DNA of 56,518 nt, taken from the NCBI GenBank assembly GCA_029624815.1, contig JARSSH010000054.1:1-56518 (forward strand). Reading direction: 5' to 3'. Position 1 is the stretch's first letter. Every line of letters begins with the position of its first letter. The stretch is from Candidatus Competibacter sp. Its GTDB lineage: Bacteria > Pseudomonadota > Gammaproteobacteria > Competibacterales > Competibacteraceae. Positions 4,065-25,577 of this stretch are shown here, one piece after another. The notes beneath the pieces were generated by a model, which was given only the letters and a program-made list of their open reading frames with translations, was not told where the DNA came from and did not search any database. A program made the translations under genes and the position numbers.

Positions 4065-4065
4065 G

Positions 4066-5370: not shown

Positions 5371-6716
5371 CGTTCTTCTCCAACCAGGCGTTCGATCTCA
5401 GCCAGTTGAATCCGCTGCTCCACCTGGGCTTTCAAGATGTTCACATTGGTTTGATAGATCTGGCGCAGGGCTTCGAGCAGGGTGGCGAAATCCACGCGCC
5501 CGGTCTGGTAGCTGGCCAGGGCTGATTTGAACGTCAGCCAGTACTGCGGTTGCAGCTCCCGGGTCAGCAAACGCACCTGTTCCCGAGCCGCTTCCAGAGC
5601 GGCCAGCGCCTCCTGCATGTTTCCCCGGATTTGCAGGGCGCTGGCCTCATAGCGCATCTGCGCTGTCGCCACCCGCGCCGCTGCTTCGCGTTCTTGCGAG
5701 CGGCGGGTTTCCTGCCACAAGGGGATATTGATCGCCAGCATCAATTCCCAGCCGTCCAGGCGTTCCTCGCGCTGGATTGCCGATAACGCAACGGTCAGAT
5801 CAGGATAGCGATTCGCCTGGGTCAGGCGTTGAGCGCGCCGGGCCGCCACGACTTGCTGGTCTTGGGCGAACAGGAGCGGGTTGGTTTCCAGGATTTGCTC
5901 CGTCAATGCGTCCAGCGAGGCGACGCCGGCGACCGCCGGCAGCTCGCGCGGTTCCGCCAAAGGTGCGTCGGGCGCGCGTCCCAGCAAGGCGTTGAGACGC
6001 GCGCCGGTGCGACGCTGCTCCGCTTGCAAGGTGATGAGCTCCGTGCGCAAGTCGGTCTGTTCGGCCTGGGCCCGGATCACGTCTTGTTGTGACGCGAGGT
6101 TGTTGGCATAGCGTTCCCGCGCCAGATGCTCGATATCGCGCAGTAGATCCACGATCTCACGGATCACCGTCGCCATTTGAAACGCGAGATAACGCTGGGC
6201 GAAGGCGGTTTTGACCTTGGCGCGCAGCTCGACGGCGGTTGCCTGCTGCTGGCCTCGGGACCGATCCGCTTCCGCCTCGGCGATTTTACTTTTGAGGGCG
6301 CGCTTGTCAGCCAGAGGAAAAGCCTGCGAGACGGTGTACTTGACCGATCCCACCCGTTCTGGCGACAGGGTCGGAGCGTCGGGGGAAATATCCCGCCACT
6401 CCACGCTCAGCATGGGATCGGCCAACGCGCCGGCGGGTTGGATCCGTTGTTCGGCAGCCTCGACTTCATACTGCATCGCAACCAACTCGGGATTGTGTTG
6501 TTCCACCCAGATCAACAATTCCTCGACTGTTGCGCCGAAGGACGATTGACCTGCGCTCAGGCGGGCGCCTGCTGCCTGGAGGGGCGAAGGCAGCACGACC
6601 ACGAGCAGCGCAAGAACGATCCATCGAGCGGGCGGTTCAGGCGCCCTGGCAGACTTTGCCACTGGCGCCCGCCTCAACCATCGGGTGAACTCTGGCGAAT
6701 CCTCCGCATGCACCAT
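5367..6716 (-). CDS. TolC-family outer-membrane factor of the Cus efflux system
   Basis: This 449-residue outer-membrane efflux protein (OEP/TolC family) is the CusC counterpart and forms the exit duct for CusBA. A hydrophobic signal at about residues 31-50 (IVLALLVVVLP ... QAAGA) is preceded by an unusually long polar leader, so the true start may be downstream, but no better start codon is visible. Two long Gln/Glu/Ala-rich helical repeats are separated by a strand region around PYPD-like NRYPDLTVALS. This is the family's internal duplication. No lipobox cysteine is seen, unlike E. coli CusC. The stop overlaps the cusB GTG start. It lies 86 bp downstream of the small exported protein gene. 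Confidence 0.9.
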   Translation of the reverse strand: MVHAEDSPEFTRWLRRAPVAKSARAPEPPARWIVLALLVVVLPSPLQAAGARLSAGQSSFGATVEELLIWVEQHNPELVAMQYEVEAAEQRIQPAGALADPMLSVEWRDISPDAPTLSPERVGSVKYTVSQAFPLADKRALKSKIAEAEADRSRGQQQATAVELRAKVKTAFAQRYLAFQMATVIREIVDLLRDIEHLARERYANNLASQQDVIRAQAEQTDLRTELITLQAEQRRTGARLNALLGRAPDAPLAEPRELPAVAGVASLDALTEQILETNPLLFAQDQQVVAARRAQRLTQANRYPDLTVALSAIQREERLDGWELMLAINIPLWQETRRSQEREAAARVATAQMRYEASALQIRGNMQEALAALEAAREQVRLLTRELQPQYWLTFKSALASYQTGRVDFATLLEALRQIYQTNVNILKAQVEQRIQLAEIERLVGEER

Positions 6717-7280: not shown

Positions 7281-8645
7281 TCATCCATTCAGAGTTTGGA
7301 TCATGACCCCCGGCAGCGTCAGCCGAAAACAAACGCCATGAGAACTGGATTCGATCAATTCCAGTTCGCCGCCGTGCGCACGAGCAATATCATGGCTGGT
7401 GGCGAGGCCGAGGCCGTTGCCACCCACCTTTACCGAACTGACAAAGGGTTCGAACAGGCGGGCGAGGGCCGCTTCGGGCAGGCCGGGACCGTCATCGGCA
7501 ATATCGATGATCCAGTCAGCAGAGGCGAGACGCGCCGTGAGGCTGGCCTGTCGCGCGCCGGCTTCGCGGCTGTTGACGAGCAGGTTGCCCAACACACGGG
7601 CCAGCCGGTCGGGATCACCGCTAATCGTCGCCCCGCCCGGGACGTCCACGGTCACCTGAAACTCCGACGGTCGAGCCGCGGCAGCGGCGGCCTGCGCGCA
7701 CAGCGCGGCCAAATCAATGCGCTCGCGTTGCGTGACCGGTGTCTCGCCGCGCGCCAGATCGAGGGTGCTGGCGCATAGATTCACCGCCCGCCGCACCGAT
7801 TGCGCCAACAACTCGGTCAGTTGCCGGCTGCGGGGATCGGCGGCGTCGGCCAGCCGGGCGGAGGCAAATGATACGGTGGCCAGAATGCTCTTCAAATCGT
7901 GGTGGATGCGTGCTACCGCACCGCCAAGGGCTGCTAGCCGGGTTTCGCGTTTTAAGGCGGCTTGTACTTCCGCTTCCATCGCGGCCAGCGAACGCTGTAA
8001 CTCACCAATTTCGTCGGCCCGAGCAAGTGGTTGCAGGGGCAGCGCGTGGTAGGGATCGGCGTGGAAAATTGCCAATTGCGTTGTCAAGCGCTCAATCGGC
8101 CTTAGAACCAAACGCATCAATCCGAGCTGCACCAGACTGGCGGTGAATAGCGAAATGGCCACCGACAAGAGCAGCGCTTCAACAGCTTGGCGGCGCATCG
8201 CTCGTTGCAGCGCTACGGCATCGAGCGTGACGGCGATCCACACGCCCCGCTCACCGGGTGGCGCGCCGCTCACCCGTAGCCAACTGCGGCCATTGTCGAA
8301 CAGTGCTTGCAAGGTGCGGAACAGGCGCTGTCCCAGTGGTTCCTGACTGAGCATAATGTCGCGCTCAACGGGAGCGGGCGCGCCCAGTTGCAGCTTAACG
8401 CCATCGAATTGCAATTCGATGCCGATCAAATGCGCCTGTTCGAGCAGCATCGCTTGTTGATCGGTGGTCAAGGTTCCGCCCGCGCGAAGCGCAATCGTCG
8501 CCATATAGGCGTCGATCAGGCGGTGTTCAAAATAATCAGTGCGAAAGGCGATCAGGCCGGGTAGATGCACCAGCACGCCGCAGGTTGTGACCAGCGCCGC
8601 GACCAAGAGGAAAACGCGCCGGGACAGGCGCGACGGTCGCGTCAC
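7281..8645 (-). CDS. Membrane sensor histidine kinase of the metal-response two-component system
   Basis: This protein of about 454 residues has two transmembrane segments (near residues 10-32 and 160-183) flanking a periplasmic sensor of about 125 residues. A HAMP linker (ADEIGELQRSLAAME) follows. The dimerisation and phosphoacceptor box contains HHDLKSIL, with the His before Asp the likely phospho-site. The C-terminal HATPase domain shows N (NLLVNSREAG), G1 (DDGPGLP) and G2 (GNGLGLAT) boxes. A GAGG site 7 bases upstream favours the GTG at 8645 over a TTG at 8651. The gene overlaps or abuts the response-regulator gene. The likely role is to sense periplasmic metal and control the sigma-54 activator. 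The ligand is inferred from context. Confidence 0.88.
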   Translation of the reverse strand: MTRPSRLSRRVFLLVAALVTTCGVLVHLPGLIAFRTDYFEHRLIDAYMATIALRAGGTLTTDQQAMLLEQAHLIGIELQFDGVKLQLGAPAPVERDIMLSQEPLGQRLFRTLQALFDNGRSWLRVSGAPPGERGVWIAVTLDAVALQRAMRRQAVEALLLSVAISLFTASLVQLGLMRLVLRPIERLTTQLAIFHADPYHALPLQPLARADEIGELQRSLAAMEAEVQAALKRETRLAALGGAVARIHHDLKSILATVSFASARLADAADPRSRQLTELLAQSVRRAVNLCASTLDLARGETPVTQRERIDLAALCAQAAAAAARPSEFQVTVDVPGGATISGDPDRLARVLGNLLVNSREAGARQASLTARLASADWIIDIADDGPGLPEAALARLFEPFVSSVKVGGNGLGLATSHDIARAHGGELELIESSSHGVCFRLTLPGVMIQTLNG

Positions 8646-8647
8646 GG

Positions 8648-10018
8648 TCAATCCTCGGTACCAGCGCGCGGGCGCAGACCGTAGCGGTCGAGCTTGCGCT
8701 CCAGCGCGGGCCGCGAGATACCGAGAATAGCGCAGGCGCGGCCTTTGTGGCCGTTGGTTTCATGCAGGGCGTTGGCGACCTGTATCGCTTCCAGTTCATC
8801 GAGCGAGTAAAGTCGGCCGCTGGGATCACGGAAAGCGTCTGGCGGCGTGGCGGTGTCTGGCGGCGCGGTGATTCGAGCGTCCAGCAAATCCGCGGTCAAC
8901 ACCGGGCCACGAGCGTGCAGCAGAGCGCGGGCCAATACATTATCGAGTTCACGCACGTTGCCCGGCCAGTCCCGCGCGCGTAGTCGTTCTTCGGCATCCG
9001 GCGTCAGCGTCACCGCTGGCCGGTCGAGCCGTCGGCAGGCGCGGGCCAGCAGGTGGCGGGCCAGCGGCAGGATATCCTCGCGGCGCTCGCGCAGCGGCGG
9101 GACGTGCAGGGTGACGACCGCGAGGCGGTATAGCAGATCTTCGCGAAATCGCCCAGCGGTCACTTCGGTGAATAAATCGCGGTTGGTCGCGGCCACGATC
9201 CGGGCGCGAGTCGTTAGCGTCTGCGTGCCGCCCACCCGCTCGAACACGCCTTCCTGCAAGACACGCAGCAGCTTGGCTTGCATGGTCGGCGGCAATTCGC
9301 CGACTTCATCAAGAAACAGCGTGCCCTCGGCAGCCTGCTCGAACTTGCCTGGTTTGGCGGCGTGGGCGCCGGTAAAAGCGCCGCGTTCATGCCCGAACAG
9401 CTCCGACTCAAGCAAGGTTTCGACCAGCGCGGCGCAGTTGACGGCGATAAACGGCCCGTTTCGGCCGCTGTAAATATGTACCAGCCGTGCGATCACTTCC
9501 TTGCCCGTTCCGCTTTCGCCAGTGATCAACACCCGAGTATCGCTGGGCGCGACTCGGGCCAAAGTCTTGCCGATTTCCAGCAACGCCCGGCTTGCGCCGA
9601 CCAGGGTCCGCAAGGGCGCATCGTCGGTTTCGGTCACGCGCGTGGCGCTCGCCTGGCGGGTGGCGAGGGCACGGTCGACCAAGCGCTCCAGTTCGGCAGG
9701 TTCGAACGGTTTGGGCAGCCAGTCGAAAGCGCCGGCGGCGATGGCCTGCATGGCGCGTTCGACATCGCGCCCACCGGTAATCAAAATCACCGGTAGGCGT
9801 GGATCGATCTTAAGCAGCCTGCTGAGCAATTCGACCCCGTCGCCATCTGGCAATTGCACATCCAACAGGACCACGTCGAGGGGCGTTTTAGTCATCGCAG
9901 CCAGGCCAGCCACGCAGTCATATACACCCGTGGCCTGCCAGCCACGGTCCTCGAAGTGGGCGCACAGCGCGAGATTCAATGCGGCATCGTCATCGATGAC
10001 CAGCAGGCGCGGGGGCAT
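8648..10018 (-). CDS. NtrC-family sigma-54-dependent response regulator
   Basis: This 456-residue regulator has three domains. A receiver has acidic residues D9/D10 and phospho-acceptor D53 in LLDVQLPDGDG. The central AAA+ ATPase has Walker A GESGTGKE and the sigma-54 contact loop GAFTGA. The C-terminal Fis-type helix-turn-helix is near ACAILGISRPALERKLDRYG. It should activate sigma-54 promoters on phosphorylation by the kinase encoded downstream. The consensus -24/-12 promoter in front of the cus operon 1.5 kb away is the obvious target. The start ATG overlaps the merR stop and has an AGGA site 6 bases upstream. The same layout is known for ZraSR and CopRS-like metal systems. Confidence 0.92.
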   Translation of the reverse strand: MPPRLLVIDDDAALNLALCAHFEDRGWQATGVYDCVAGLAAMTKTPLDVVLLDVQLPDGDGVELLSRLLKIDPRLPVILITGGRDVERAMQAIAAGAFDWLPKPFEPAELERLVDRALATRQASATRVTETDDAPLRTLVGASRALLEIGKTLARVAPSDTRVLITGESGTGKEVIARLVHIYSGRNGPFIAVNCAALVETLLESELFGHERGAFTGAHAAKPGKFEQAAEGTLFLDEVGELPPTMQAKLLRVLQEGVFERVGGTQTLTTRARIVAATNRDLFTEVTAGRFREDLLYRLAVVTLHVPPLRERREDILPLARHLLARACRRLDRPAVTLTPDAEERLRARDWPGNVRELDNVLARALLHARGPVLTADLLDARITAPPDTATPPDAFRDPSGRLYSLDELEAIQVANALHETNGHKGRACAILGISRPALERKLDRYGLRPRAGTED

Positions 10019-10519: not shown

Positions 10520-12859
10520 ATGAACACCCACCAGCATTCCTGCGAACACGGGCATCACTCTCCCCATGTCCACGATCATTCTGTCCTTCATCCCGCAAAA
10601 CCGGCGGTCGAGACGCCACCCCCTGCGCCAAGGATGATTTATACCTGCCCGATGCACCCGGAGATTCGTCAGGAAGGACCGGGTAGTTGCCCGAAGTGCG
10701 GTATGGCCCTGGAGCCGGAAAATATTTCTACGCCTGCGGTCAAGACAGAGTACGTCTGTCCGATGCATCCGGAGATCGTTCAGGACCAGCCCGGCGATTG
10801 CCCCAAATGCGGCATGGCCCTGGAGCCACGAACGGTGACTCTCGAAGAAGAGGAAAATCCGGAACTTAAGGACATGACCCGGCGCTTCTGGATCGGCGCT
10901 GTGTTGACGATTCCCTTGGTGATCATCGCCATGGGCGAATTCATACCGGGCGTCTCCTTCACCGGGTTGGGCTCGCCCCGCGCCATGGGCTGGCTGGAAC
11001 TGACGCTGGCCACGCCGGTGGTGTTGTGGGGCGGCTGGCCTTTCTTCGTCCGGGGTTGGCAGTCCCTGGTCAATCGTAGCTTGAACATGTTTACCCTGAT
11101 CGGCCTAGGCGTGGGGGTAGCATTTATTTACAGTCTCATCGCGATCCTGTTCCCGACCTTGTTCCCTGCTTCGTTTCGTGACGCGCATGGCGAGGTCGCC
11201 GTGTATTTCGAAGCGGCGGCGGTGATCGTGACTCTGGTGTTGCTGGGGCAAGTGCTGGAATTGCGAGCGCGCCAGCAAACCGGAGCCGCCATCAAGGCAC
11301 TGTTAGGACTGGCGCCCAAGACCGCTCGTCGGATCAGGACGGATGGTGGCGAAGAGGATGTGCCGCTGGAGCAGGTTCATCCTGGCGATCGGTTACGGGT
11401 CCGACCCGGTGAGAAAGCCCCGGTCGATGGCGTCGTGCTGGACGGCCATGGCAGCGTGGACGAATCGATGGTCACGGGCGAGCCAATCCCGGTGGAGAAA
11501 AACCCTGGCGACAAGATCATCGGCGCCACGGTGAACGGTACCGGTAGTCTGATCATGGAAGCGCAACGGGTCGGCGCGGATACCCTGCTGTCGCAAATCG
11601 TGCAGATGGTGGCGCAAGCCCAGCGCAGCCGCGCGCCCATTCAAAAACTGGCCGATCAAGTCGCCGGCTACTTCGTGCCGGTGGTCGTCGCCACTGCTGT
11701 GCTTACCTTCATCGTCTGGGCGATCTTCGGGCCGCCGCCGGCCATGGCCTACGCCCTGATCAACGCCGTGGCGGTGCTCATTATCGCCTGTCCGTGTGCG
11801 CTGGGTTTGGCGACGCCCATGTCGATCATGACCGCGACCGGCAAGGGCGCCACGATTGGCGTGTTGTTCAAAAACGCCGAAGCGATCGAAGTGCTGCGCC
11901 AAATCGACACCTTGGTGGTGGACAAGACCGGCACCCTGACCGAGGGCAAACCCAAGCTGGTGGCGGTTACCCCTGGCCCCGATCTGGATGAAGCCACGCT
12001 CTTGCGATACGCCGCCACCCTGGAGCGCGGCAGCGAGCATCCGCTGGCCGCCGCGATCGTTAAAGGCGCTCAGGAACGCGGCATCGCCCTTGGCCATGCC
12101 GAACAGTTTGCCTCGATCACTGGCAAGGGCGTAACCGGTGAGGTGGATGGCCGCACGGTCGCCTTGGGCAATCGCGCCTTGCTGCAAGAACTGAACATCG
12201 ATCCGGGGACGCTCGATCAGGCGGCGGAGCAGCAACGCGCGGAGGGGCAGACTGTGATGTTCGTGGCGGTGGATGGGCAGGCTGCCGGTTTACTCGGCGT
12301 CGCCGATCCGATCAAGGACACCACGCCGGGTGCGATTCAGGCATTGCACGCTGAAGGATTGAACATCGTCATGCTGACCGGCGACAACGAAACCACTGCC
12401 CGAGCGGTTGCGCGGAAGCTCGGTCTGGATCAGGTCATTGCCGGGGTGTTACCCGATCAGAAGGCCAACAAGGTCAAAGCGTTGCAGCAGGAAGGCCGGC
12501 GGGTCGCCATGGCGGGCGATGGCGTCAACGATGCCCCGGCCCTGGCGCAAGCGCAGGTCGGCATCGCCATGGGCACCGGCACGGATGTCGCCATGGAAAG
12601 CGCCGGCGTCACCTTGGTCAAGGGTGATTTAAACGGGATCGTCCGCGCTCGGCAACTCAGTCGCGCCACGCTGCGCAATATCCGCCAGAATCTGTTTTTT
12701 GCCTTCATTTACAACGCGCTGGGCGTACCGGTTGCGGCAGGCATTCTTTATCCCGCATTCGGTATCCTGCTTTCGCCGATCATCGCCGCCGCCGCGATGA
12801 GTTTCAGTTCGGTGTCGGTGGTGTTCAATGCCCTGCGTTTGAATCGGGTGCGATTGTAA
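10520..12859 (+). CDS. copA: Cu(I)-translocating P1B-type ATPase (CopA type) with two N-terminal metal-binding motifs
   Basis: This 779-residue heavy-metal ATPase exports cytoplasmic Cu(I) (or Ag(I)). A His-rich leader ([17 protein letters not shown]) precedes two short heavy-metal-binding repeats of the form CPMHPEI ... [10 protein letters not shown] at about 41-67 and 78-104. These replace the usual ferredoxin-like HMA domains. The membrane CPC motif is C424-P-C426, the phosphorylated Asp is D468 in DKTGTLTEG, and TM7/TM8 carry YNALG and [13 protein letters not shown]. Together these are P1B-1 (Cu+) signatures. A strong GAGGAGG site lies upstream. Expression is predicted from the MerR-type promoter just upstream. 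It completes the cluster by feeding periplasmic copper to Cus efflux. Confidence 0.94.
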
Positions 12860-15606: not shown

Positions 15607-17382
15607 TCAGGAAATTCTCCCGGCCAGCAAGGGCCGGCTGGTCGCGGTTTCGCCCAGATAATGCCGCACCCGGGCCAGCGCCCGCGGCAGGCTGGCCGAT
15701 AGCAGCAGTTCACCTGGAACATTGTGCAGACCGGCGCGGCGCATCAGCAGCGCCGGCTGGCCGTGCACGCCCGCCACCGCGACCAGGATGTTGTCGCTTC
15801 GCAGCCGCTCGATGGCCGAATCCAGCGCCACCACTCCCGATACATCCATCACCGTCACCTCCTCGATGTCGATGATGACCGCCCGAGGTCGAGCACCGAT
15901 TTCGTGCAAGGCGCTCATCGCCTTTTCGGCGGCGCCGAAGAACAACGAACCGGACACTTCGTACAACCTCACGCCTTCGGGCAACGGGCTTTCCAGATGA
16001 GGATGATCGACCTCCACATGCTTGCCGCCGGTCAAGGCCGCCATGCGGTTCATGAACAGCAGGGAGGCCAACACCACGCCGACACTGATGGCGACCACCA
16101 TATCGAACAGCACCGTCAATCCGAAACAGACCAGCAAGACCAGGATGTCGCTGCCGGGCGCTACTTGAACGATATGACGAAAGTGCTTGAGTTCGCTCAT
16201 GTTCCACGCCACCAGCAACAGCAAGGCGGCCAGCGCGGCCATGGGCAGATAACCCAGCAACGGCGCCAGCGCCAGCAAGACCAGCAGTACGAATAGGGCG
16301 TGAAACACAGCAGCCAGCGGGCCACGCGCACCAGCGCGGATGTTGGCGGCGGTGCGGGCCAGCGCGCCGGTCGCGGCAATGCCACCGAAAAACGGCGCCA
16401 CGACGTTACCGATGCCCTGTCCGATCAGCTCGGCGTCGGGATCGTGCTTGGTGCCGGTCATGCCGTCGGCCACCACCGCGCACAGCAGCGACTCGATGGC
16501 CCCCAGCAGGGCAATCGCCATCGCCGGACCCAGCAGATCCTTGATCAATCCCAGCGACAGCCCTAAGACTTGCCCGTCTGGACCGGGCAGTTGCCACGGC
16601 AGTCTGAAACTCGGCAGGAACGGCGGGATACCCGGTAAGGTTTCCCCGCCTAACGCATAGCTGAAGCGCGATGCGATGGTGGCGACTTCGAAACCCTCCA
16701 CGGTTCGACCGAGCAGCCAGGCCAGCCCGGTGGCGATGACGATGCCGACCAGCGGCGCCGGCAAACCGGTTTTCAGGCGCGGCCACAACACCAGCAGCGC
16801 CAGGGTCAGCGCGCCGACCAGTAAATCCGGCCAGTGCCAACCCGGCAAGGACTGCCCCACCAGCCACAGCCGCTCCAGAAAATGCTCCGGCTGCATCGTA
16901 AGCTGCAAGCCAAAAAAATCCTTGAGCTGCAAGCTGGCGATCACCACCGCGATTCCGGCGGTGAAACCGGTGGTCACCGGATAAGGGATGAACTGAATCA
17001 GCTTACCCATTCGCGCCACGCCCAGGCCGATCAGCATGATGCCGGCCAACAGCCCGGCGGTGACCAGCCCGCCCAGGCCGAATTTTTCAGCGATGGGATG
17101 CAGGATGACGATGAAGGCGGCGGTCGGACCCGACACGCTGTAGCGAGAACCGCCGGTCAGGGCGATCAGCAGCCCGGCGACGATGGCGGTATATAAACCA
17201 TACTGCGGTGGCACCCCGCTGCCGATCGCCAACGCCATCGACAGCGGCACCGCGACAATGCCGACGGTAATGCCGGCCAGCAGATCCTCTCGCAACTTGG
17301 ACAGGTTATAACCGCCGCGCAGCTTGTCGCGCAGGGCGGTGCCAAACGGTAGATAAAGCGCGTGCTCCCGATCGGGTTTCAT
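15607..17382 (-). CDS. SulP-family anion transporter with STAS domain
   Basis: This 591-residue SLC26/SulP transporter has the family N-terminal signature (AGITVGIVAVPLSMALAIGSG), about 12-14 membrane segments to roughly residue 430, and a C-terminal cytoplasmic STAS domain. The domain contains VIIDIEEVTVMDVSGVVALD. Family members carry sulfate, bicarbonate or other anions, and the substrate cannot be read from the sequence. It is the last gene of the hydrogenase-4-like operon, 14 bp after the 62-residue protein gene, so it is probably co-transcribed with the complex. The genetic link suggests the complex drives or uses anion transport, which is inference. Confidence 0.92.
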   Translation of the reverse strand: MKPDREHALYLPFGTALRDKLRGGYNLSKLREDLLAGITVGIVAVPLSMALAIGSGVPPQYGLYTAIVAGLLIALTGGSRYSVSGPTAAFIVILHPIAEKFGLGGLVTAGLLAGIMLIGLGVARMGKLIQFIPYPVTTGFTAGIAVVIASLQLKDFFGLQLTMQPEHFLERLWLVGQSLPGWHWPDLLVGALTLALLVLWPRLKTGLPAPLVGIVIATGLAWLLGRTVEGFEVATIASRFSYALGGETLPGIPPFLPSFRLPWQLPGPDGQVLGLSLGLIKDLLGPAMAIALLGAIESLLCAVVADGMTGTKHDPDAELIGQGIGNVVAPFFGGIAATGALARTAANIRAGARGPLAAVFHALFVLLVLLALAPLLGYLPMAALAALLLLVAWNMSELKHFRHIVQVAPGSDILVLLVCFGLTVLFDMVVAISVGVVLASLLFMNRMAALTGGKHVEVDHPHLESPLPEGVRLYEVSGSLFFGAAEKAMSALHEIGARPRAVIIDIEEVTVMDVSGVVALDSAIERLRSDNILVAVAGVHGQPALLMRRAGLHNVPGELLLSASLPRALARVRHYLGETATSRPLLAGRIS

Positions 17383-17396
17383 GGAGAGCGGATTCT

Positions 17397-17585
17397 TTAT
17401 CCGTCCCGGGAACGTCGAGGCTGAACGATCACGGTCTTTTCATCGCCCGACTCGGACTCCTTGATGATGTAGCCCCGCTCGTTTTCCAGATAAAATTCAA
17501 TGATTTCAATAGGAATTGACCTGAGTCGACTCAGGTACACCATGGAATCCTTGAAGCGTTGCAGCTCGGCAACGGTAATGGTCAT
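17397..17585 (-). CDS. Small protein of 62 residues between hyfI and sulP
   Basis: I chose the ATG at 17585 because GGAG lies 7 bases upstream. An upstream ATG gives 12 extra residues with no site. The protein is soluble and charged (ITVAELQRFKDSMVYLSRLR, then a strand-rich region rich in Glu). It has no cysteines and no recognised domain. Its tight position inside the operon, 36 bp after hyfI and 14 bp before sulP, suggests an accessory of the complex or of the transporter. The function is unknown. Confidence 0.65.
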   Translation of the reverse strand: MTITVAELQRFKDSMVYLSRLRSIPIEIIEFYLENERGYIIKESESGDEKTVIVQPRRSRDG

Positions 17586-17621
17586 GGGACGGCTCCAAAT
17601 CGATGGATTGGCGGAAAACAA

Positions 17622-18137
17622 CTACTGGACCACTTGCAACAACGCCAGCAAGCCTTCCAGCAACTGCATGGGATTGGGCGGACAACCGGGAATGTGCAGA
17701 TCGACCGGAATCACCTCGGCCACGCCGCCGACACAGGCGTAGCCACCGGCGAACACCCCGCCGTCCCGCCCGCAATCGCCCACCGCGACGACCCACTTCG
17801 GATCGGGCGTGGCGGCGTACGTGCGCTCCAGCGCCTCGCGCATGTTGACCGTTACCGGCCCGGTCACCAGCAACACATCGGCATGGCGCGGCGAAGCGAC
17901 AAAATGGAAACCGAAGCGCTCCAGGTCGTGGAAGGCGTTGTTCAGCGCGTGGATCTCCAGCTCGCAACCGTTGCAGGAGCCGGCGTCCACCTCGCGGATC
18001 GCCAAACTGCGGCCCAGGCGTCGGCGGGCGGCCCGATCGACCTCCGCGCCCAATTCGGCCAGGGCTGCTTCGGAAGGCGCCGGAGCGGGAAGGGTCAGCG
18101 GTGACCGCCACCCATTTTGCAACAGCAGCTTGCGCAT
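17622..18137 (-). CDS. hyfI: HyfI/NuoB-like [4Fe-4S] subunit
   Basis: This 171-residue protein of the NuoB / hydrogenase-4 small-subunit family carries the terminal iron-sulfur cluster of the peripheral arm. The cluster ligands are all present: C55 and C58 (SCNGCELEI), C122 (GDCG) and C152 (IPGCPPNP). An extra C135 lies between. An electron-transfer site is therefore retained even though the partner large subunit has lost NiFe ligands. It starts 10 bp after hyfG. Confidence 0.92.
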   Translation of the reverse strand: MRKLLLQNGWRSPLTLPAPAPSEAALAELGAEVDRAARRRLGRSLAIREVDAGSCNGCELEIHALNNAFHDLERFGFHFVASPRHADVLLVTGPVTVNMREALERTYAATPDPKWVVAVGDCGRDGGVFAGGYACVGGVAEVIPVDLHIPGCPPNPMQLLEGLLALLQVVQ

Positions 18138-18147
18138 GACGGAGCGC

Positions 18148-19680
18148 CTAGAGATCGTGGCCCGAATACGAGCAGTTGAAGGATTTGTTGCACAAGGGGA
18201 AATCCGCCACGATGTTGCCTTCGATGGCGGCTTCCAGCAACGGCCACTGAAACCAGGAGGGATCGCGCGGATGACAGCGCGCTACCGTGCCGTCGGCGGC
18301 CAAGCGCAACCAAAGCAGGATGTCGCCGCGAAACCCCTCGACCAGCGCCATGCCCTCGACCAGCCGGCCAGGTTGGTTCAGTGCCCCTTGCACCGGACCC
18401 GACGGCAAGCGCTCCAGAAGCTCTTCGATCAGGGCCAGACTCTGTTCCACTTCACGGATGCGAATCCACACCCGGGCGTTGACGTCGCTTTCGCGCCGCA
18501 CCGGCACCTCGAACTCAAGCTGATCGTAGGGCGGGTAACCCGGCTCGCGGCGGGCATCGAAGGCACGGCCGGCGGCGCGGCCGATCACGCCGCCGCAACC
18601 GAACTGCTGGACCAGCGCCGGATCAAGCGTTCCGGTATTGGCGGTGCGGTCTTGCAGCGAGGCGGTGTTGTCGTACAACTCGACCAAGGGTGGAAACGCG
18701 CGGCGCATCTCGGCCAGCAGGGCTCGCAAGATCGGAACGCCATCCGCCGGCAAATCAACGGCCACGCCGCCCGGAATCACGCAATCCATCAGTAGACGAT
18801 GCCCGAAGCAGGCGACGCTGGCGCGCAGCACCCGCTCGCGCAACACCGCGCAATGGGCCAACATCAAGGCAAACGCGGCATCGTTGCAGATCGCGCCGAT
18901 GTCGCCGCAGTGATTGGCCAACCGTTCCAACTCGGCCATCAGCGCCCGCAACCAGTGCGCGCGCGCGGGAATCTCCGTTGCCGTCGCCGCCTCGACCGCC
19001 CGGGCGAAGGCCAAGGCATAAGCCACCGTGCTGTCGCCGGATACCCGCCCCACCAGCCGCGCCGCCCGCTCCAGCGTCGCGCCGTTCAGCAGGCTCTCGA
19101 TCCCCTTGTGAACATAGCCCAGCCGCTCTTCCAGCCGGACCACGGCCTCGCCGTTGGCGGTAAAGCGGAAATGGCCGGGCTCGATGATGCCGGCGTGGAC
19201 CGGCCCCACCGGAATCTGGTGCAGGCTTTCGCCCTCCGTCGGCAGAAACGGATAAGGCGGCAGCGCTTCGGCCGGCGCTGTTGGAGAACCCAGAGGATGA
19301 CGCAGCGGCCAGCGACCGTGATCCAGCCAGGGACGAAGATCGGGGCCAGCGACCGGTTGCAGACCGACCAGATCGGCGACGGCGCGTTCCAGTCGTTGCG
19401 CCGGCGGATGCCAGCGCCCCACCGAAGGGAACTCGCCGGTCGGACAAGGCAGGCTGGCGATGCCCGGCGCGCCGGTCTCGAACTCATGGACCGCCAGATG
19501 CACCATGCCGGGTTCGCCCCACAATCCGAGCAGGGTCCAGGCGCCTTTCGCCAGCCCGGCCAGCAACGCGTTCCAGGTTTCGACCGTTACCACGAAACGG
19601 GGCCAGGGCCGATGCCCGGTAACCGGCTGACCGGCGCCCAGCACGACGAGCAAGTCGGGTTTGGCGTTCGTCGCTCTCAT
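18148..19680 (-). CDS. hyfG: HyfG/NuoCD-like large subunit lacking NiFe-site cysteines
   Basis: This 510-residue fusion has a NuoC-like N-terminal part (about 1-130) and a NuoD/[NiFe]-hydrogenase large-subunit part. In real group 4 hydrogenases an N-terminal C-x2-C and a C-terminal DPCxxC bind the NiFe centre. Here the first motif reads R-V-S214-G-D-S217, with no cysteine. The second region reads D493-F-P-L-C497-N-K-S500, leaving at most one ligand, and the protein ends ten residues later without a maturation peptide. Hydrogenase activity is therefore unlikely. This pattern fits the energy-converting hydrogenase-related (Ehr) proteins between complex I and hydrogenases. The substrate or redox partner is unknown. 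Confidence 0.9.
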   Translation of the reverse strand: MRATNAKPDLLVVLGAGQPVTGHRPWPRFVVTVETWNALLAGLAKGAWTLLGLWGEPGMVHLAVHEFETGAPGIASLPCPTGEFPSVGRWHPPAQRLERAVADLVGLQPVAGPDLRPWLDHGRWPLRHPLGSPTAPAEALPPYPFLPTEGESLHQIPVGPVHAGIIEPGHFRFTANGEAVVRLEERLGYVHKGIESLLNGATLERAARLVGRVSGDSTVAYALAFARAVEAATATEIPARAHWLRALMAELERLANHCGDIGAICNDAAFALMLAHCAVLRERVLRASVACFGHRLLMDCVIPGGVAVDLPADGVPILRALLAEMRRAFPPLVELYDNTASLQDRTANTGTLDPALVQQFGCGGVIGRAAGRAFDARREPGYPPYDQLEFEVPVRRESDVNARVWIRIREVEQSLALIEELLERLPSGPVQGALNQPGRLVEGMALVEGFRGDILLWLRLAADGTVARCHPRDPSWFQWPLLEAAIEGNIVADFPLCNKSFNCSYSGHDL

Positions 19681-19690
19681 CCGATCACCC

Positions 19691-21148
19691 TCAACCCAGC
19701 AGAACCGCGACGTGGCGGAACCAGGCCACCAGCGGTTCGGGCAGCCAGAACCCGGCGACCAACACCAGGAGCAGATGCACCACCGTTGGCAGGGTGCTGG
19801 CCCGCACCGGCACGACGGCGGTCCCGTCCGGCTGGCCGAACGCCATGCCGTGCAAGCGCCACAGCAGGGTGCCGAACGCCAGCAGCAATCCCACCACCAG
19901 CGGCAGCGCCAGCAGCGGCTGGCGGGCGAAGGTGGAACTCACCACCAGGAATTCGCTCATGAATACCCCGAACGGCGGCATCCCGGCGATGGCGATCACG
20001 CCCGCCACCAGCCCCCAGCCGAGGGTCGGATGGGTGACGGTCAGGCCGCGAATGGTGGAGATCCGCTGAGTGCCCTTGACTTGGGAAATATGGCCCACGG
20101 TGAAGAAAATCGCCGACTTGGTCAGGCTGTGCAGGGTCATGTGCAACAACCCGGCAAAATTGGCCAGCGGCCCACCCATGCCGAAGGCGAAGGTAATGAT
20201 CCCCATGTGCTCGATGGAGGAATAGGCGAACAGACGCTTGATGTCGCCCCGACGGTAGAGCATCAAGCCGGCGAACAACAGCGACAGCAGCCCCAGAATG
20301 ACCATCAGCGGTCCCGGCGCCAGCGCGGACGGGTTGGCGCTCATCAGCATCTTGAAGCGCAACACCGCATACAGCGCCACGTTCAGCAGCAACCCGGACA
20401 GTACCGCCGAGATCGGCGTGGGGCCTTCGGCGTGCGCGTCCGGCAGCCAGGCGTGCAGCGGCACCAGACCGGCCTTGGTGCCGTAACCGAGCAGCAAGAA
20501 CACGAACGCCAGGTTGAGCAGCGCTGGATCGAAGGCGTCGGCGCGGGCCAGCAGCCGATCCCAGGCCATGGCCGGCAGCCCCTGTCCGATCACCGGCTGC
20601 GCCGCCAGATATACCAGGATGGTGCCGAACAGCGCCAGGGCGATGCCGAGGCTGCCCAGGATGAAATACTTCCAGGCGGCTTCCAGCGCGGCATGGGTCC
20701 GGTAGAGACCGACCATCAGCACCGTGATCAGCGTCGCCAGTTCGATCGCCACCCACAGCAACCCGATGTTGTTGGCCAACAGCGCCAGGTTCATGGCGAA
20801 CAGCAGCGCCTGATACATGGCGTGATAGAAACGCAGGTACACCGGGGTCAGCCGACCGGTTTCCAGTTCGTGGGCGATGTAGCCGGCGCTGAATACGCTG
20901 GTGGTGAAACTGACCCAGTTGTTCAGCGCGATCAGATAGATGTTGAAATCGTCCACCCGCAGGTAGAGATTGGCCTCGGGTCGCGCCTGGAACAGGGCGG
21001 CGGCGGCCAGCAGGCACAGCAGCGCCGCGCCGACGTTCAGCCGGGCGCCGAGCCGGTAGCCGGACACCAGCACCAGCAGCAGCGCCGTACCGGCCGGAAC
21101 GCCCAGCAGCACGGCCACCGCCACGAGACCGAGATCCGCGCCGCTCAT
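19691..21148 (-). CDS. hyfF: HyfF/NuoL-NuoN-like proton-translocating membrane subunit
   Basis: This 485-residue, almost entirely hydrophobic antiporter-like subunit (Proton_antipo_M family) has about 13-14 helices. It shows the typical GDIKRLFAYSSIEHMGI segment and conserved charged helix residues such as those around YGTKAGLVPLHAWLPDAHAE. In complex I and group 4 hydrogenases such subunits move H+ or Na+ across the membrane. The start ATG overlaps the hyfE stop (ATGA). Confidence 0.92.
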   Translation of the reverse strand: MSGADLGLVAVAVLLGVPAGTALLLVLVSGYRLGARLNVGAALLCLLAAAALFQARPEANLYLRVDDFNIYLIALNNWVSFTTSVFSAGYIAHELETGRLTPVYLRFYHAMYQALLFAMNLALLANNIGLLWVAIELATLITVLMVGLYRTHAALEAAWKYFILGSLGIALALFGTILVYLAAQPVIGQGLPAMAWDRLLARADAFDPALLNLAFVFLLLGYGTKAGLVPLHAWLPDAHAEGPTPISAVLSGLLLNVALYAVLRFKMLMSANPSALAPGPLMVILGLLSLLFAGLMLYRRGDIKRLFAYSSIEHMGIITFAFGMGGPLANFAGLLHMTLHSLTKSAIFFTVGHISQVKGTQRISTIRGLTVTHPTLGWGLVAGVIAIAGMPPFGVFMSEFLVVSSTFARQPLLALPLVVGLLLAFGTLLWRLHGMAFGQPDGTAVVPVRASTLPTVVHLLLVLVAGFWLPEPLVAWFRHVAVLLG

Positions 21149-21810
21149 CGCCGCCGCTCCTCCCGGAAGGTATCCATTGCCTGCATGTCCACGCTATCGA
21201 AGCGCTCCCGGATGCGGAACAGAAAAATGCCGATCACGATCAGCGCGATCAGCACCGAAAACGCGACGCTGATTTCCACCGCCAGCGGCATGCCGCGCGC
21301 CCCGGCGGCGGCCAGCACCAGCCCGTTCTCCAGCGACATGAAGCCGATCACTAGGCTGACCGCGTTACGGCGGGTGACCATCAGCAGCAGCCCCAGCAAC
21401 ACCACCGCCAGGGCGAAGGCCAGATCCTCGCGCGCCAGCGCGTCGGCGGTGGCCGTCACCGGCAGCATCACCAGAATCGCCAGCGCCACCAACCCGGTGC
21501 CCGCCAGCATGTCCCGGCCCACGCCTCCCACCGCCTCCAGCGTGCGATGGATGCCAAGCCGCCGGACGATGCGGTGGAGCGCGACCGGAATGACGATCGC
21601 CTTGAACACCAGCGCGATGCCCGCCGTGATGTACAGGTGATGCGCGCCCTGAATGGCGGCCTGCCAACCGACCGCCAGCGCCAGCACCAGCGAGTGCAGG
21701 GCGAAGACATTAATCAGGGCATACAGGCGATCCTGATACAGCAGCAGGAAACTGGCCACCACCATGCCGCCGGCCAGAAAATGGGCGATATCGAAGGCCA
21801 GGCCGTGCAT
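21145..21810 (-). CDS. hyfE: HyfE-like membrane subunit
   Basis: This 221-residue membrane protein has six or seven helices and resembles HyfE, with NuoK-like features in its C-terminal half (VIGFMSLENGLVLAA). I favour the ATG at 21810 because GGAG lies 6 bases upstream. A GTG at 21813 is also possible. It overlaps the end of hyfC. In hydrogenase-4 it joins the NuoH-like and NuoL-like subunits. Confidence 0.88.
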   Translation of the reverse strand: MHGLAFDIAHFLAGGMVVASFLLLYQDRLYALINVFALHSLVLALAVGWQAAIQGAHHLYITAGIALVFKAIVIPVALHRIVRRLGIHRTLEAVGGVGRDMLAGTGLVALAILVMLPVTATADALAREDLAFALAVVLLGLLLMVTRRNAVSLVIGFMSLENGLVLAAAGARGMPLAVEISVAFSVLIALIVIGIFLFRIRERFDSVDMQAMDTFREERRR

Positions 21811-22766
21811 CACAGACTCCGGGACACGAACAGCAACAGGGTGCCGAGCAAACCCAGCATCAGCGCCGCCCCCAGAAATTCGCCGACCCGGAACACCCGC
21901 ATCTTGGCGATGCTGGTTTCGAACAGCGCCAGTAGCAGGCCGCCCGTCGCCAGTTTGGCCAGATACGCGACCACACCCCCCAGGTAATCCACGGGGCCCG
22001 CGCCGGCGGTCGCCATGCCCCAGGGCACGAAGATGCAGGCCGTCAGCGACAGATAGAGCAGCAATTTCAGGGCAGCGGCCAGTTCGATCAACGCCAGATG
22101 GCGGCCGGAGTATTCCAGCACCATTGCCTCATGCACCATGGTCAGTTCCAGGTGGGTGGCCGGATTGTCCACCGGAATCCGGGCGTTTTCGGCGATCGCC
22201 ACCATGACCAAAGCCAGCAGCGCCAGCGCCAGCGACACCCGCAGGCCGACATCGGCATTCAGCATGAAACGGGCGACCGCCGACAGTTCGGTGGTGCCGG
22301 CCAGCAGCGACAGGGTGAACACCATCATCAACATGGCCGGCTCGGCCAGCGAGGCGATCATCATCTCGCGGCTGGCGCCGATGCCGCCGAAGCTGGTGCC
22401 GACATCGAGCCCGGCCAGCGCCAGAAAAAAACGGGCGGTGCCCAGCAAGGCGACGATGGCGATCAAATCGGCTGTCCAACTGAACGGCAGGCCGCTGGCG
22501 AAGGTCGGCACCAGCGCCGCCCCCACCCAGATCGCGGCGAAGATCAGATAGGGCGCCACCCGAAATAGCCAGGAGGCGGAGTCGGCCAGCACGACCTCCT
22601 TGCGCAACAGCTTGAGCAGATCGCGGTAGGGTTGCAGCGGGGTCGGGCCACGCCGACGCAGCAGTCGCGCCTTGATCGTGCGGACGAAACCGGTGAGCAG
22701 CGGGGCCAGCAGCAGCGTCAGCAGCATTTGACAGCCCTGCACTGCATAGTCGGCGGTCAGCGCCAT
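21810..22766 (-). CDS. hyfC: HyfC/NuoH-like membrane anchor subunit
   Basis: This 318-residue NuoH-family subunit connects the membrane arm to the peripheral redox subunits. It has about eight helices. The conserved NuoH-type loop with Glu/Arg and Asn/Pro residues is seen in IAENARIPVDNPATHLELTM, followed by HEAMVLEYSG. The ATG at 22766 lies inside the end of hyfB (10-bp overlap). A longer frame through hyfB in another reading phase is only a shadow. Confidence 0.92.
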   Translation of the reverse strand: MALTADYAVQGCQMLLTLLLAPLLTGFVRTIKARLLRRRGPTPLQPYRDLLKLLRKEVVLADSASWLFRVAPYLIFAAIWVGAALVPTFASGLPFSWTADLIAIVALLGTARFFLALAGLDVGTSFGGIGASREMMIASLAEPAMLMMVFTLSLLAGTTELSAVARFMLNADVGLRVSLALALLALVMVAIAENARIPVDNPATHLELTMVHEAMVLEYSGRHLALIELAAALKLLLYLSLTACIFVPWGMATAGAGPVDYLGGVVAYLAKLATGGLLLALFETSIAKMRVFRVGEFLGAALMLGLLGTLLLFVSRSL

Positions 22767-24784
22767 AGCACCATCCCCAGCAGCAGCACCACCAGCGCGC
22801 CGAACACCAGGCTTAGGTAACGGCGAATAGTGAGGTATTGAAAGGCATTGAAGCGGGTGGAAAGCGCCACCACGGCGGCGGCGATCGGAGCGTAGCCGCG
22901 ATCCCAGACCGGATCGGGCAGTTCGACCTCCAGCCGCGCCGGCCGCGCGTCGCCGGGCGGCGGCATGAACACCCGTTCCCGCGCCTGAAACACCACGCTG
23001 CCGAACACCCGGCGGATCGGTTGGGCAAAGCTGCCGGCGGTGTATTGGGTCGCGGGGCTGGCTTCGGGAAAGCCGCAATCCCAAGCCGGGCCGCGCCGCG
23101 CGGCGGCGGAGGCGAATCGATGGATCAGGAGGGCCGCGACGGTTCCGGAAATCGCCATGAACAGCAACACCAGCAAGCCGTTGTAGGTACTTTTGACATC
23201 CACTACCGGCACCAGCGTCAACCAGGGCTGGCTGCTCTGCGCCGTCAGCCGGGTGCTGCCATTGAGCATACTCACCACCGGCGACAAGCCGTCCACCACC
23301 AGGCCGGGCAGGATGCCGGCCAGCAGGCAAAGCGCCGCCAGAACGAACAGCGCGACCAATGAATAGCGGTCGGTCTCCCGCGCTCCGGCGGCGGCGGGCG
23401 AGCGGGGCCGCCCCAGGAAGGTAATGCCGAAAGCCTTGACGAAGCAGGTGGCGGCCAGCGCGGCGGACAACGCCAGCAGCGCGCCGACCGCCGGCACCAG
23501 GAACTTGAGCGGCCATTGCGGCAGTTCCGGGCTGGCCAGGATGGCCTGGAAGGTCAGCCATTCGGAGACGAAACCGTTCAGCGGCGGCAGCGCCGAAATC
23601 GCCGCCGCGCCGATCAGAAACGCCAGCGCGGTCCACGGCATCGGGTGGATCAAGCCGCCCAGCCGCTCCATGTCGCGCTCCCCGGTGGCGGTCAGCACCG
23701 CGCCGGTACCAAGAAACAGCAGACTCTTGAACAATGAATGGTTGAGGATGTGAAACAGCGCGGCGGTCAGCGCCAGCGCGGCATTCGCGTACATATGATT
23801 GGTCTGAAACGCCAGCGCCAATCCCAGACCGATGAAGATGATGCCGATGTTCTCCACCGTGTGATAGGCGAGCAGTCGCTTCAGATCGTGCTGCATCAGC
23901 GCGTACAGCACGCCCAGGACGGCGGTGATTCCGCCCAGCGCCAGCACCAGGCCACCCCACCACCAGGCCGGCTCGCCCAGCAGATCGAAGGCGATGCGGA
24001 TGAAACCGTACACCGCCACCTTGGTCATCACCCCGCTCATCAATGCCGACACATGGCTGGGCGCGGCCGGGTGCGCCAGCGGCAGCCAGACATGCAAGGG
24101 CACCAACCCGGCCTTGGAGCCGGCTCCCGCCAGCGCCAACGCCAGCGCCAGCGCCGCCGCGCCCGGCGTGACCTGAGCGGCGCGGATGGCGGCGAAATCG
24201 TAACCGCCGTCGGGACCGGCCAGCAGCCCGAAAGCCAGCAGCAGCGCCAGGGTACCGAAACAGGCCATGACCAGATACAGATAACCGGCGCGGGCGTTGG
24301 CCGGTTCTCGATGGTGGGCCATCACCAACGCCCATGAACTCAGCGACATGAATTCCCAGGCGAATAGGAAAGTGAAGGCATCGTCGGCCAGCAGCACCAG
24401 GTTCATGCCGGCCAGAAAGGCCGGATAGAACGGCAGCACCCGTTCGGGCGCTTGCTCGTGCTGGCCGTAACCCAGGGCAAACAGGCTGGCCACCGCGCCG
24501 CCGAGATTGACCACAATCAGGAAAAAAGCCGATAGCGCATCCAGGCGGAAATGCGCGCCCAGCCAGGGTAAGCCCAAGGGCAAGGTGAGTGTGGCCGGCG
24601 TTCGGTCGCCCAGCAGATGCGCCAGCGCCGTTCCCAGCAAAATGATGCAAATGGTCAGACTGACCCCGTAGACCCGATGGCTGCAACCCTTGCGGCGCGA
24701 TGCGGCAATCGCATGGAGGTCGACGGTGAGCAGGGCCATGGCCAAGCCCAAGAGCAGCGACAACGGCATGGTGACGAATTCCAC
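22757..24784 (-). CDS. hyfB: HyfB/NuoL-like proton-translocating membrane subunit
   Basis: This 675-residue antiporter-like subunit of the hydrogenase-4/complex I superfamily is the first gene of the operon. About 16-18 helices are visible, with the family segment HDLKRLLAYHTVENIGIIF and the channel-lining GAGSKAGLVPLHVWLPLAHP. A long C-terminal extension (about 520-675) contains a short charged loop before the last helix. The start is GTG at 24784, weakly supported by GGAAAAA; an ATG at 24769 is the alternative. No ferredoxin-like HyfA/HyfH and no NAD-binding subunit follow, so the electron donor is not encoded here. Confidence 0.92.
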   Translation of the reverse strand: MEFVTMPLSLLLGLAMALLTVDLHAIAASRRKGCSHRVYGVSLTICIILLGTALAHLLGDRTPATLTLPLGLPWLGAHFRLDALSAFFLIVVNLGGAVASLFALGYGQHEQAPERVLPFYPAFLAGMNLVLLADDAFTFLFAWEFMSLSSWALVMAHHREPANARAGYLYLVMACFGTLALLLAFGLLAGPDGGYDFAAIRAAQVTPGAAALALALALAGAGSKAGLVPLHVWLPLAHPAAPSHVSALMSGVMTKVAVYGFIRIAFDLLGEPAWWWGGLVLALGGITAVLGVLYALMQHDLKRLLAYHTVENIGIIFIGLGLALAFQTNHMYANAALALTAALFHILNHSLFKSLLFLGTGAVLTATGERDMERLGGLIHPMPWTALAFLIGAAAISALPPLNGFVSEWLTFQAILASPELPQWPLKFLVPAVGALLALSAALAATCFVKAFGITFLGRPRSPAAAGARETDRYSLVALFVLAALCLLAGILPGLVVDGLSPVVSMLNGSTRLTAQSSQPWLTLVPVVDVKSTYNGLLVLLFMAISGTVAALLIHRFASAAARRGPAWDCGFPEASPATQYTAGSFAQPIRRVFGSVVFQARERVFMPPPGDARPARLEVELPDPVWDRGYAPIAAAVVALSTRFNAFQYLTIRRYLSLVFGALVVLLLGMVLWR

Positions 24785-24822: not shown

Positions 24823-25068
24823 TCAGCCCTTCAGTCGAACGCCGCGCCCACCGCCTTCGCTGGCGGCGCCCTCGCCGATCAGTTCCACGCCGGCGGCATC
24901 GAGCGCGGCAATCAGCTTGACCAGCGAATCCACATTGCCGCGAATCGTGCCTTCGCTGGTTTCCATCCGCTGGATGGTCGGCAGGGACAAGCCGGCGATT
25001 TCGGCGAGCGTTCGCTGGTCCATACCCAACAGCGCGCGCGCTGCTTTTAACTGAGCCGCTGTGAGCAT
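24823..25068 (-). CDS. Small XRE-type helix-turn-helix regulator
   Basis: This is an 81-residue DNA-binding protein. The helix-turn-helix reads QLKAARALLGMDQRTLAEIA, then LSLPTIQRMETS, typical of the Cro/C1 fold, and the C-terminal part resembles small single-domain regulators (AALDAAGVELIGEG). I chose the ATG at 25068. An ATG 13 codons upstream gives an unrelated leader. It lies only 39 bp upstream of the hyfB start on the same strand, so it could regulate or belong to the hyf operon. That is inference. Confidence 0.8.
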   Translation of the reverse strand: MLTAAQLKAARALLGMDQRTLAEIAGLSLPTIQRMETSEGTIRGNVDSLVKLIAALDAAGVELIGEGAASEGGGRGVRLKG

Positions 25069-25577
25069 GATGAAAATCCAGGTTCCAAAGCGGGCATCAA
25101 TTATCAATAATTAGAATTATAAACACAATATTAAATATTGCGTATTAATTTTTAATACATCATTTCTGCATGGCAATGCATATCTGGATTGAGCATCCGC
25201 ATGGGTATCATCCCGGCAATACAGCGTTTCCACTCGGCGATGGCATTCTGGTGGGCGCCCGGAATCCGTGTCACCGCTCGCCGCCTTAGCGATCGGCGTC
25301 TTGACGCCCTGCATCGGGGCGCCTATCGTCTCCGAAAAGACCTCACCACCGGTTGTTATGCTGATATAGTGCGAGCGTCCCGTTGGCCCGCCAATGTCAG
25401 CCGAGGAGTTTATGAGCAGTATTCGCCGGCCAGGGTCTACCGGGCGTTGCGGATTTCCTCGGAGATCGCATCGATTTCATCCGGGCGCATCATGGCCCAA
25501 ACTGACCGACAACCTTTGACTGGCACTTGACCGACCGAAAAGAAAATGGCTTGCATTACCGCAAGCCAATGAAAATA
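25069..25577. other. Gene-free gap between the regulator and the tRNA cluster
   Basis: The first 100 bases are very AT-rich (25100-25165) and probably hold the minus-strand promoter of the regulator/hyf genes. The remainder (25190-25530) is open in one plus frame and one minus frame, but neither has a start with a ribosome-binding site or a recognisable protein. I see nothing else. Confidence 0.5.

Follow-up and report, generated by a model that had tools for sequence, protein, structure and literature searches.

An operon encoding an Ehr-type complex and a SulP transporter

The window analysed here is the whole 56,518-nucleotide stretch of contig JARSSH010000054.1 (assembly GCA_029624815.1) from Candidatus Competibacter sp., a gammaproteobacterium with a 3.6 Mb genome. 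Its minus strand carries, from 25068 down to 15607, a tight string of genes (XRE/HTH, hyfB, hyfC, hyfE, hyfF, hyfG, hyfI, a 62-amino acid gene and sulP) that encodes a six-subunit complex, HyfBCEFGI, together with a SulP anion transporter. A sequence-only reading of this DNA had described six complex I/hydrogenase-4 subunits followed by a 62-residue protein and a SulP transporter with tiny gaps or overlaps, and the genes, their order, their coordinates and their common minus orientation all proved correct; overlooked there was the 81-amino acid XRE/helix-turn-helix (HTH) gene at the operon head, which is conserved with the complex.

This head gene (24823..25068, minus strand; Pfam HTH_3, 28.4 bits against a cut-off of 23) lies 38 bp before hyfB, and is preceded by a predicted operator, TGATGTATTAAAAATTA (25146..25162, minus strand), which has three mismatches to the palindrome TGATGTTTNAAACATCA treated below and is the sole site in the window with three or fewer. 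Antiporter-like membrane subunits are encoded by hyfB (22757..24784, minus strand; 675 amino acids; NF005086, 902.5 bits, cut-off 667) and hyfF (19691..21148, minus strand; 485 amino acids; NF005043, 824.4 bits, cut-off 533). Between them lie the NuoH-like hyfC (21810..22766, minus strand; 318 amino acids, ATG start; PF00146, 126.7 bits) and hyfE (21145..21813, minus strand), whose 222-amino acid membrane subunit is 27% identical to Escherichia coli HyfE and scores 84.9 bits with NF008556, under the cut-off of 136. The hyfG product (18148..19680, minus strand; 510 amino acids), placed by alignment and structure comparison, is NuoCD/HycE-like and has no NiFe ligands, and that of hyfI (17622..18137, minus strand; 171 amino acids; PF01058, 115.4 bits) is NuoB-like with four iron-sulfur (Fe-S) cysteines. 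The string closes with the 62-amino acid gene (17397..17585, minus strand), of unknown function and without a Pfam or NCBIfam match, and with the STAS-bearing SulP of the DauA/YchM type (15607..17382, minus strand; 591 amino acids). The latter exceeds the cut-off of the DauA equivalog model (NF008660; 753.6 bits against 614) and differs from DauA/YchM and BicA in sitting within a complex I-like operon; with the BicA model it reaches 217 bits, under the cut-off of 880. Neighboring genes overlap by 10 (hyfB/hyfC), 4 (hyfC/hyfE) and 4 (hyfE/hyfF) nucleotides or are separated by 10 (hyfF-hyfG), 10 (hyfG-hyfI), 36 (hyfI to the 62-amino acid gene, from its ATG start) and 14 (to sulP).

Queries with E. 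coli HyfA, HyfH and HyfJ gave no tblastn match in the window at E 1e-3, and the E. coli HyfD query matched only HyfB and HyfF there. A Pfam scan of the operon proteins found no DabA (PF10070) subunit. The 62-amino acid gene, which is sporadic in the family (it lies near sulP in G002, G004, G007 and G033), was rejected as a core part of the system, because 5 have it among the 13 family genomes with linked sulP that were examined, host included (G012 and G016 were left out).

HyfG has lost its NiFe ligands but keeps a conserved pocket

Alignment of HyfG with E. coli HycE and HyfG places S214-G-D-S217 at the first CxxC motif and S504 and G507 at the second pair; because these residues occupy the ligand columns, none of the four NiFe ligand positions is kept. 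The serines had been recognized correctly at the outset, but C497 is not, as had been stated, the sole cysteine near the end of the protein, since C503 is also there. Neither falls in a ligand column; 93/94 closer and 34/42 wider homologues retain C497, and 81/94 and 19/42, respectively, retain C503. The pocket is not decaying, because ten of its residues (H162, I166, H170, D216, D267, K499, S500, N502, Y505 and D509) do not vary across 42 homologues at 40-100% identity to the window HyfG. HyfI keeps its four Fe-S cysteines, as proposed, with C55, C58, C122 and C152 invariant in 92/92 sequences, and HyfB and HyfF retain their invariant Lys, Glu and His residues.

The closest solved structure to HyfG is E. 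coli HycE (7z0s, E 1.5e-55), onto which the predicted HyfG model superposes with a TM score of 0.85; 6u8y_L is another sequence match. The pocket geometry of the AlphaFold model is unusable, residues 142-178 and 506-510 having pLDDT values below 50. Over the best aligned stretches the subunits resemble those of E. coli hydrogenase-4 and formate hydrogenlyase (Hyf, Hyc) at 40% (HyfB), 42% (HyfF), 45% (HyfI) and 30% (HyfG) identity, but the window set differs in having no match to HyfA, HyfH or HyfJ and in having lost every NiFe cysteine. Group 4 [NiFe] hydrogenase membership is therefore not indicated, as both the two CxxC motifs of the large subunit and a ferredoxin-type HyfA/HyfH are missing. 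The His and Tyr of complex I NuoD, which we take to be its quinone-binding residues, align with I166 and G215 of HyfG, so that this pair is not kept either. What the operon does encode, group-4-hydrogenase-like subunits without Ni-Fe ligands and antiporter-like membrane subunits (HyfB and HyfF), corresponds to an Ehr complex, as defined in the available text of PMC6349859.

The six-gene complex is widespread, whereas its SulP link is largely confined to one family in the loci examined

A scan of 84,980 GTDB species genomes returned at least 590 candidate stretches, at least 579 of them relatives, and the best 80 loci were kept. Own-genome loci (L001, L002) were left out of the tallies and a 100-base filler (L276) was dropped; SulP and HyfG paralogues at 32-33% identity and a 30-amino acid SulP-like fragment in L017 were not counted. 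The eight nearest hyfG loci are 76-85% identical to that of the window, and 4/8 are labelled Competibacteraceae; the nearest full-length match is labelled Phycisphaerales, probably a mislabel. Among the best 80 loci the six genes keep one order wherever the contig suffices, with hyfI lying 2 kb off in L078. A class-level sample gave HyfG at E <1e-60 in 44/369 genomes, with the six genes together in most of the loci fetched; the exceptions are a lone hyfG (G070), an hyfF-hyfG pair without adjoining hyfBCE (G214) and a set without hyfI (G320). DabA was counted in 12/44 hyfG-bearing genomes and in 3/36 others. One genome also holds a second, distant Hyf-like cluster (G393:C1:1735001-1755000, L192) whose HyfG is 33% identical and which, unlike the window's, includes a HyfH-like ferredoxin subunit.

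Within the host's family this HyfG occurs in 30/39 genomes, half of which (15) have sulP no more than about 5 kb from hyfG. Two arrangements are seen, as G033 and G038 place sulP between the XRE gene and hyfB rather than after hyfI. G025 and G026 carry hyf on one long contig and sulP on another, and 10 of these 30 hyfG-bearing genomes, some of them incomplete assemblies, have no such SulP at E 1e-60. A whole sulP lies near hyf in 2 of the best 80 GTDB loci, many of which are on short contigs, and both belong to the host's family; outside that family, the class sample yields a SulP at 1/37 hyf loci (G214, L212), of another subfamily and 0.5 kb before hyfF-hyfG. Linkage in this genome alone would have counted against the proposed coupling, but the sulP linkage is not peculiar to it: the tie holds within the family and is rare elsewhere in the loci examined. 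The broader picture was right in its NiFe-less complex of the Ehr type, its tie to a SulP and its anion theme.

An XRE regulator and a palindrome are shared by hyf and sulP loci

The sole widely recurring neighbor around the best 80 GTDB loci is the XRE gene, which in 55 precedes hyfB and shares its strand, in 2 lies upstream but points the other way and in 1 is downstream. Of the remaining 22, 14 are on contigs that end in or before hyfB and 8 truly have no XRE gene. A 153-amino acid neighbor cluster looks, by eye, like an antisense shadow of an HTH gene. In three genomes of the rhizobial genus of G586, a second, inward-facing XRE copy stands at the far end of the operon, so that two copies bracket it (L245 4663-12546, L244, L246).

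When the best HTH copy per genome is followed beyond the host, a phylum-level sample of Pseudomonadota (398 genomes searched, 31 with a copy) places it directly before hyfB in 11 genomes, before a lone SulP in 17 and before neither in 1, with weak matches without loci in another 2; the corresponding class-level figures (143 searched, 10 with a copy) are 7, 2 and 1 for hyfB, SulP and neither. Both pairings occur on plasmids. XRE with hyf is found in records from Rhizobium johnstonii, whose strain 3841 carries hyf on pRL11 as RL_RS31260-31230, and Methylovirgula, and XRE with SulP in records from Labrenzia, Microvirga, Tistrella, Ochrobactrum, Sinorhizobium, Azospirillum, Roseovarius, Sphingobium, Sphingopyxis and a Geminicoccaceae bacterium; among 90 HTH-bearing plasmid records, the 18 contexts examined comprise 13 SulP, 1 SulP remnant, 1 hyf and 3 neither. 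The HTH-linked SulPs are of two kinds, at 38-48% and 32-33% identity to the window SulP.

After removal of near-identical upstream regions (138 reduced to 117), the 17-bp palindrome TGATGTTTNAAACATCA was found with at most three mismatches upstream of 36/71 HTH-hyf genes, 16/22 HTH-SulP genes and 6/24 unassigned HTH genes, as compared with means of 0.05, 0 and 0 in dinucleotide shuffles. Its presence in both the hyf and the SulP classes is not built in by the choice of consensus. Judged from sequence, the XRE regulator links two ALTERNATIVES: the hyf complex and a lone SulP. A distant XRE relative (about 50%) precedes a signal peptidase S26-type gene in L209 (10092-10340), and probably marks another regulon.

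The complex and SulP replace one another in rhizobia

Among the matches listed for the 109 genomes of the rhizobial genus of G443, 42 have Hyf only, 61 SulP only, 3 both and 3 neither (Fisher p 6e-23). Because species share ancestry, an rpoB tree was built from 105 of the 109 genomes (G793, G820 and G842, with no rpoB match, and G788, with a partial one, were left out). On this tree hyf changes at least 27 times and SulP at least 26, and among 22 independent pairs with a difference in hyf, about 18 show the opposite difference in SulP, about 4 show none and no pair shows one in the same direction (sign test p ~8e-6). In the genus of G586, when any SulP is counted, the 107 genomes divide into 34 with hyf only, 53 with SulP only, 18 with both and 2 with neither (p 2e-12, without tree control).

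The pattern extends to individual loci. Between flanks that are 93% and 88% identical, G602 carries XRE-hyf-XRE where G938 carries a SulP without a STAS domain. Three hyf-bearing genomes show losses at the XRE-SulP locus: in G659 the XRE gene is kept and about 1.5 kb of SulP is deleted, in G557 SulP is gone and the XRE gene is left an orphan, and in G851 the XRE gene stands beside a SulP fragment of about 141 amino acids, a remnant not counted as SulP. Around SulPs without a STAS domain in the G586 genus, no carbonic anhydrase was recognized by eye at 7 loci, and 14/14 had no HTH match.

The complex and SulP look interchangeable, since interchangeability would predict that one gene turns dispensable once the other arrives, and each seems able to work alone because the two mostly exclude one another in two rhizobial genera. 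The sequence-only reading had the complex driving uptake through SulP, a view that this exclusion does not support. Physical or energetic coupling of that kind is accordingly very improbable in our estimation, even though the two share a neighborhood, in two arrangements, in 15/30 family genomes, given that each acts alone in the two genera and that no whole sulP is nearby in 78 of the best 80 loci (many on short contigs). We conclude from these comparative patterns that the complex and SulP are probably interchangeable parts with a shared task rather than a coupled pair.

A possible shared task in inorganic carbon supply

If the two share a task, inorganic carbon would be our first choice for its substrate, a preference we hold with some confidence; taken jointly, a shared task and that substrate make a reading that we put forward tentatively, as somewhat less than an even bet. 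One XRE-headed operon would then encode, in a six-subunit proton-translocating complex of the Ehr type and a DauA-type SulP, two exchangeable routes to a single need, dissolved inorganic carbon; many Competibacteraceae hold both branches in one operon. SulP would import HCO3-, and in the HyfBCEFGI route proton flux through HyfB, HyfF and HyfC would power the hydration of CO2. A complex without a solute carrier would replace a bicarbonate importer most easily by making bicarbonate from CO2. Even granting an inorganic carbon task, we rate it as somewhat less likely than not that the reaction takes place at the rebuilt pocket of HyfG (R212-V-S-G-D216 ... K499-S-F-N-x-S-Y505) or close to it. Electrons passing through the HyfI cluster perhaps contribute; the retention of its Fe-S cysteines suggests that electrons probably matter too. 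NDH-1MS couples a complex to CO2 hydration with a different catalytic subunit, and both it and DAB could serve as models for such hydration, with other catalytic subunits. In the available text of PMC13144422, DAB2, which has a NuoL-like subunit, is a proposed carbonic anhydrase powered by proton motive force; by analogy, the window complex resembles DAB2/MpsAB vectorial carbonic anhydrases in its antiporter-type membrane subunits and in a proton-driven supply of dissolved inorganic carbon, proposed for both, but lacks a DabA-type subunit, in whose place it has six subunits like those of complex I, with an Fe-S site. YchM-clade SulPs are treated as bicarbonate transporters in what is available of PMC6458275.

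Several neighborhoods hint at carbon metabolism. Of 7 sphingomonad plasmid records examined, 5 have the HTH gene divergent from phosphoenolpyruvate carboxykinase (PEPCK), the enzyme being by Pfam of the GTP type in one and of the ATP type in another, where checked. The records with this divergent pair are L398 (1798-5816), L390, L403, L389 and L400; some also hold PhnA, two have a Na+/H+ antiporter downstream, and L389 and L398 have no SulP. Among 22 genomes with both hyfG and RuBisCO, the two lie 7 kb apart in G346, 11 kb in G393 and about 29 kb in G119 and G171, where chance would be expected to give roughly one genome within 30 kb, by a rough estimate with no computed control. In Nitrobacter hamburgensis the XRE gene follows cbbL-cbbS-cbbX.

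A number of observations weigh against the replacement pattern or its carbon reading. The Nitrobacter hint is weak, because neither SulP, HyfB nor the palindrome is found within reach of that HTH locus, and dicarboxylate or pH roles would also account for PEPCK and a Na+/H+ antiporter in the vicinity of the HTH gene. The invariant HyfI cysteines imply redox chemistry, which is superfluous for a pure CO2 hydratase. DauA, the curated name of the window SulP, is described for E. coli as a C4-dicarboxylate transporter in the available text of PMC5703999. No carbonic anhydrase was recognized in the operons listed, and the host genome already has two beta-carbonic anhydrases and, outside the operon, DabA (G000:C24). 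The idea that Hyf substitutes for carbonic anhydrase was rejected, the enzyme being if anything more frequent with hyf (PF00484 in 34/44 hyfG-bearing genomes and 193/325 others), and Hyf as a marker of autotrophy is unsupported, with RuBisCO in 22/44 genomes with hyfG and 17/36 without. As to replacement itself, the complex and SulP often co-occur in the host's family, and when only STAS-bearing SulPs are counted in the genus of G586 the exclusion is weaker (both 16, hyf only 36, SulP only 35, neither 20; p 6e-4, without tree control). In both genus counts scoring was limited to the 6 or 7 candidates per genome that ranked highest at first look, with matches down to about E 1e-40 in the G443 genus, such that gene fragments could escape; the rpoB tree is one gene analysed by a quick method; and the palindrome shuffle figure is optimistic, because the consensus was drawn from the sequences on which it was counted.

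Alternative explanations

The strongest competitor to carbon supply, to which we assign a small but real chance, is cytoplasmic pH or ion balance, in which the complex would act as an Mrp-like proton pump or antiporter, SulP would exchange HCO3- or another base and the XRE protein would sense pH or membrane energy. The invariant Lys, Glu and His residues of HyfB and HyfF, the Na+/H+ antiporter downstream of the HTH gene on the RW1 and JS3065 plasmids, and the DabA and beta-carbonic anhydrase already present in the host all fit such a role; just 2 of the 18 HTH contexts examined on plasmids, however, have an annotated antiporter, and the RuBisCO and PEPCK neighbors would be left unexplained. 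Uptake or use of C4-dicarboxylates or other organic anions, the true function of DauA, seems to us unlikely. The window SulP does exceed the DauA equivalog cut-off, PEPCK adjoins the HTH gene and a malic enzyme gene is convergent in the window, but 6/6 HTH-linked SulPs tested elsewhere fall under that cut-off, and malic enzyme recurs as just two 28% matches in the best 80 GTDB loci and one 56% match, 3.8 kb away, in 40 class loci. A complex without a solute-transporter subunit would, moreover, be a poor replacement for a dicarboxylate carrier.

Slightly less probable still is a regulatory accident, in which HTH, SulP and hyf move together as mobile genes that have no task in common: many of the loci are on plasmids, but mobility alone predicts neither the repeated opposite changes on the tree nor the SulP deletion scars. 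Sulfur redox, with an MBS-like (poly)sulfide or sulfite reductase beside a SulP for sulfur oxyanions, we consider as improbable as direct coupling. It could draw on the sequence match to 6u8y_L, presumably the sulfane reductase MbsL, on the retained HyfI cluster and on a TauE/SafE-like gene (by eye) beside SulP and hyfFG in G214; against it, the operon has no electron-input subunit, HyfH appears in 1 of 40 fetched loci, as the distant second copy in L192, and no sulfur gene was seen by eye among the recurring flanking clusters.

Other features of the window

Elsewhere in the window, a dnaE frame of 1785 amino acids (DNA polymerase III alpha; 45195-50552, minus strand) is split by an intein with a LAGLIDADG domain. 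An RND pump set (AcrB-type, membrane fusion and outer membrane proteins), a histidine kinase and a P-type ATPase with heavy-metal binding domains occupy 900-6716 (minus), 7281-8651 (minus) and 10520-12859 (plus); this stretch, beside the malic enzyme gene, is perhaps a metal-resistance island.

Relation to known systems and implications

Clusters with the same six gene names have been reported, to judge from the available texts: one in Cupriavidus, H16_A2196-A2201 of C. necator H16, was noted as an incomplete hydrogenase-4 operon (PMC2864759), the Acidithiobacillus ferrooxidans hyf cluster was classed as non-hydrogenase by HydDB (PMC7735108) and a Nitrospira cluster was called a group 4 hydrogenase (PMC5596200); the likeness drawn here is one of gene names. 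A comparative study of Nitrospirales from 2025 describes an Ehr complex without NiFe sites as of unknown function (PMC12342949, available text), in keeping with the earlier statement that such complexes are known and their substrate is not. These reports differ from the present case in that their available texts mention no regulator, SulP link or replacement, and we found no earlier account of a shared regulator, palindrome or SulP replacement in the openly accessible literature searched, as far as the available texts go. The complex thus belongs to a known kind, and its joining with SulP in one operon is a variation on that kind; what is new is the regulon, together with the pattern of replacement.

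In its boldest form, which we think unlikely, the inorganic carbon reading would make HyfBCEFGI a further class of energy-coupled CO2-to-bicarbonate pump, derived from a hydrogenase-4 ancestor whose NiFe pocket became a hydration site, and the XRE-palindrome regulon an inorganic-carbon regulon that swaps pump and SulP. Ehr complexes are widespread and their substrate is unknown; a shared regulator, an operator-like palindrome and a tree-controlled replacement by a one-gene transporter make the question genetically testable in rhizobia. If the carbon reading is true, the complex would represent another solution to CO2 supply, in heterotrophs and autotrophs alike.

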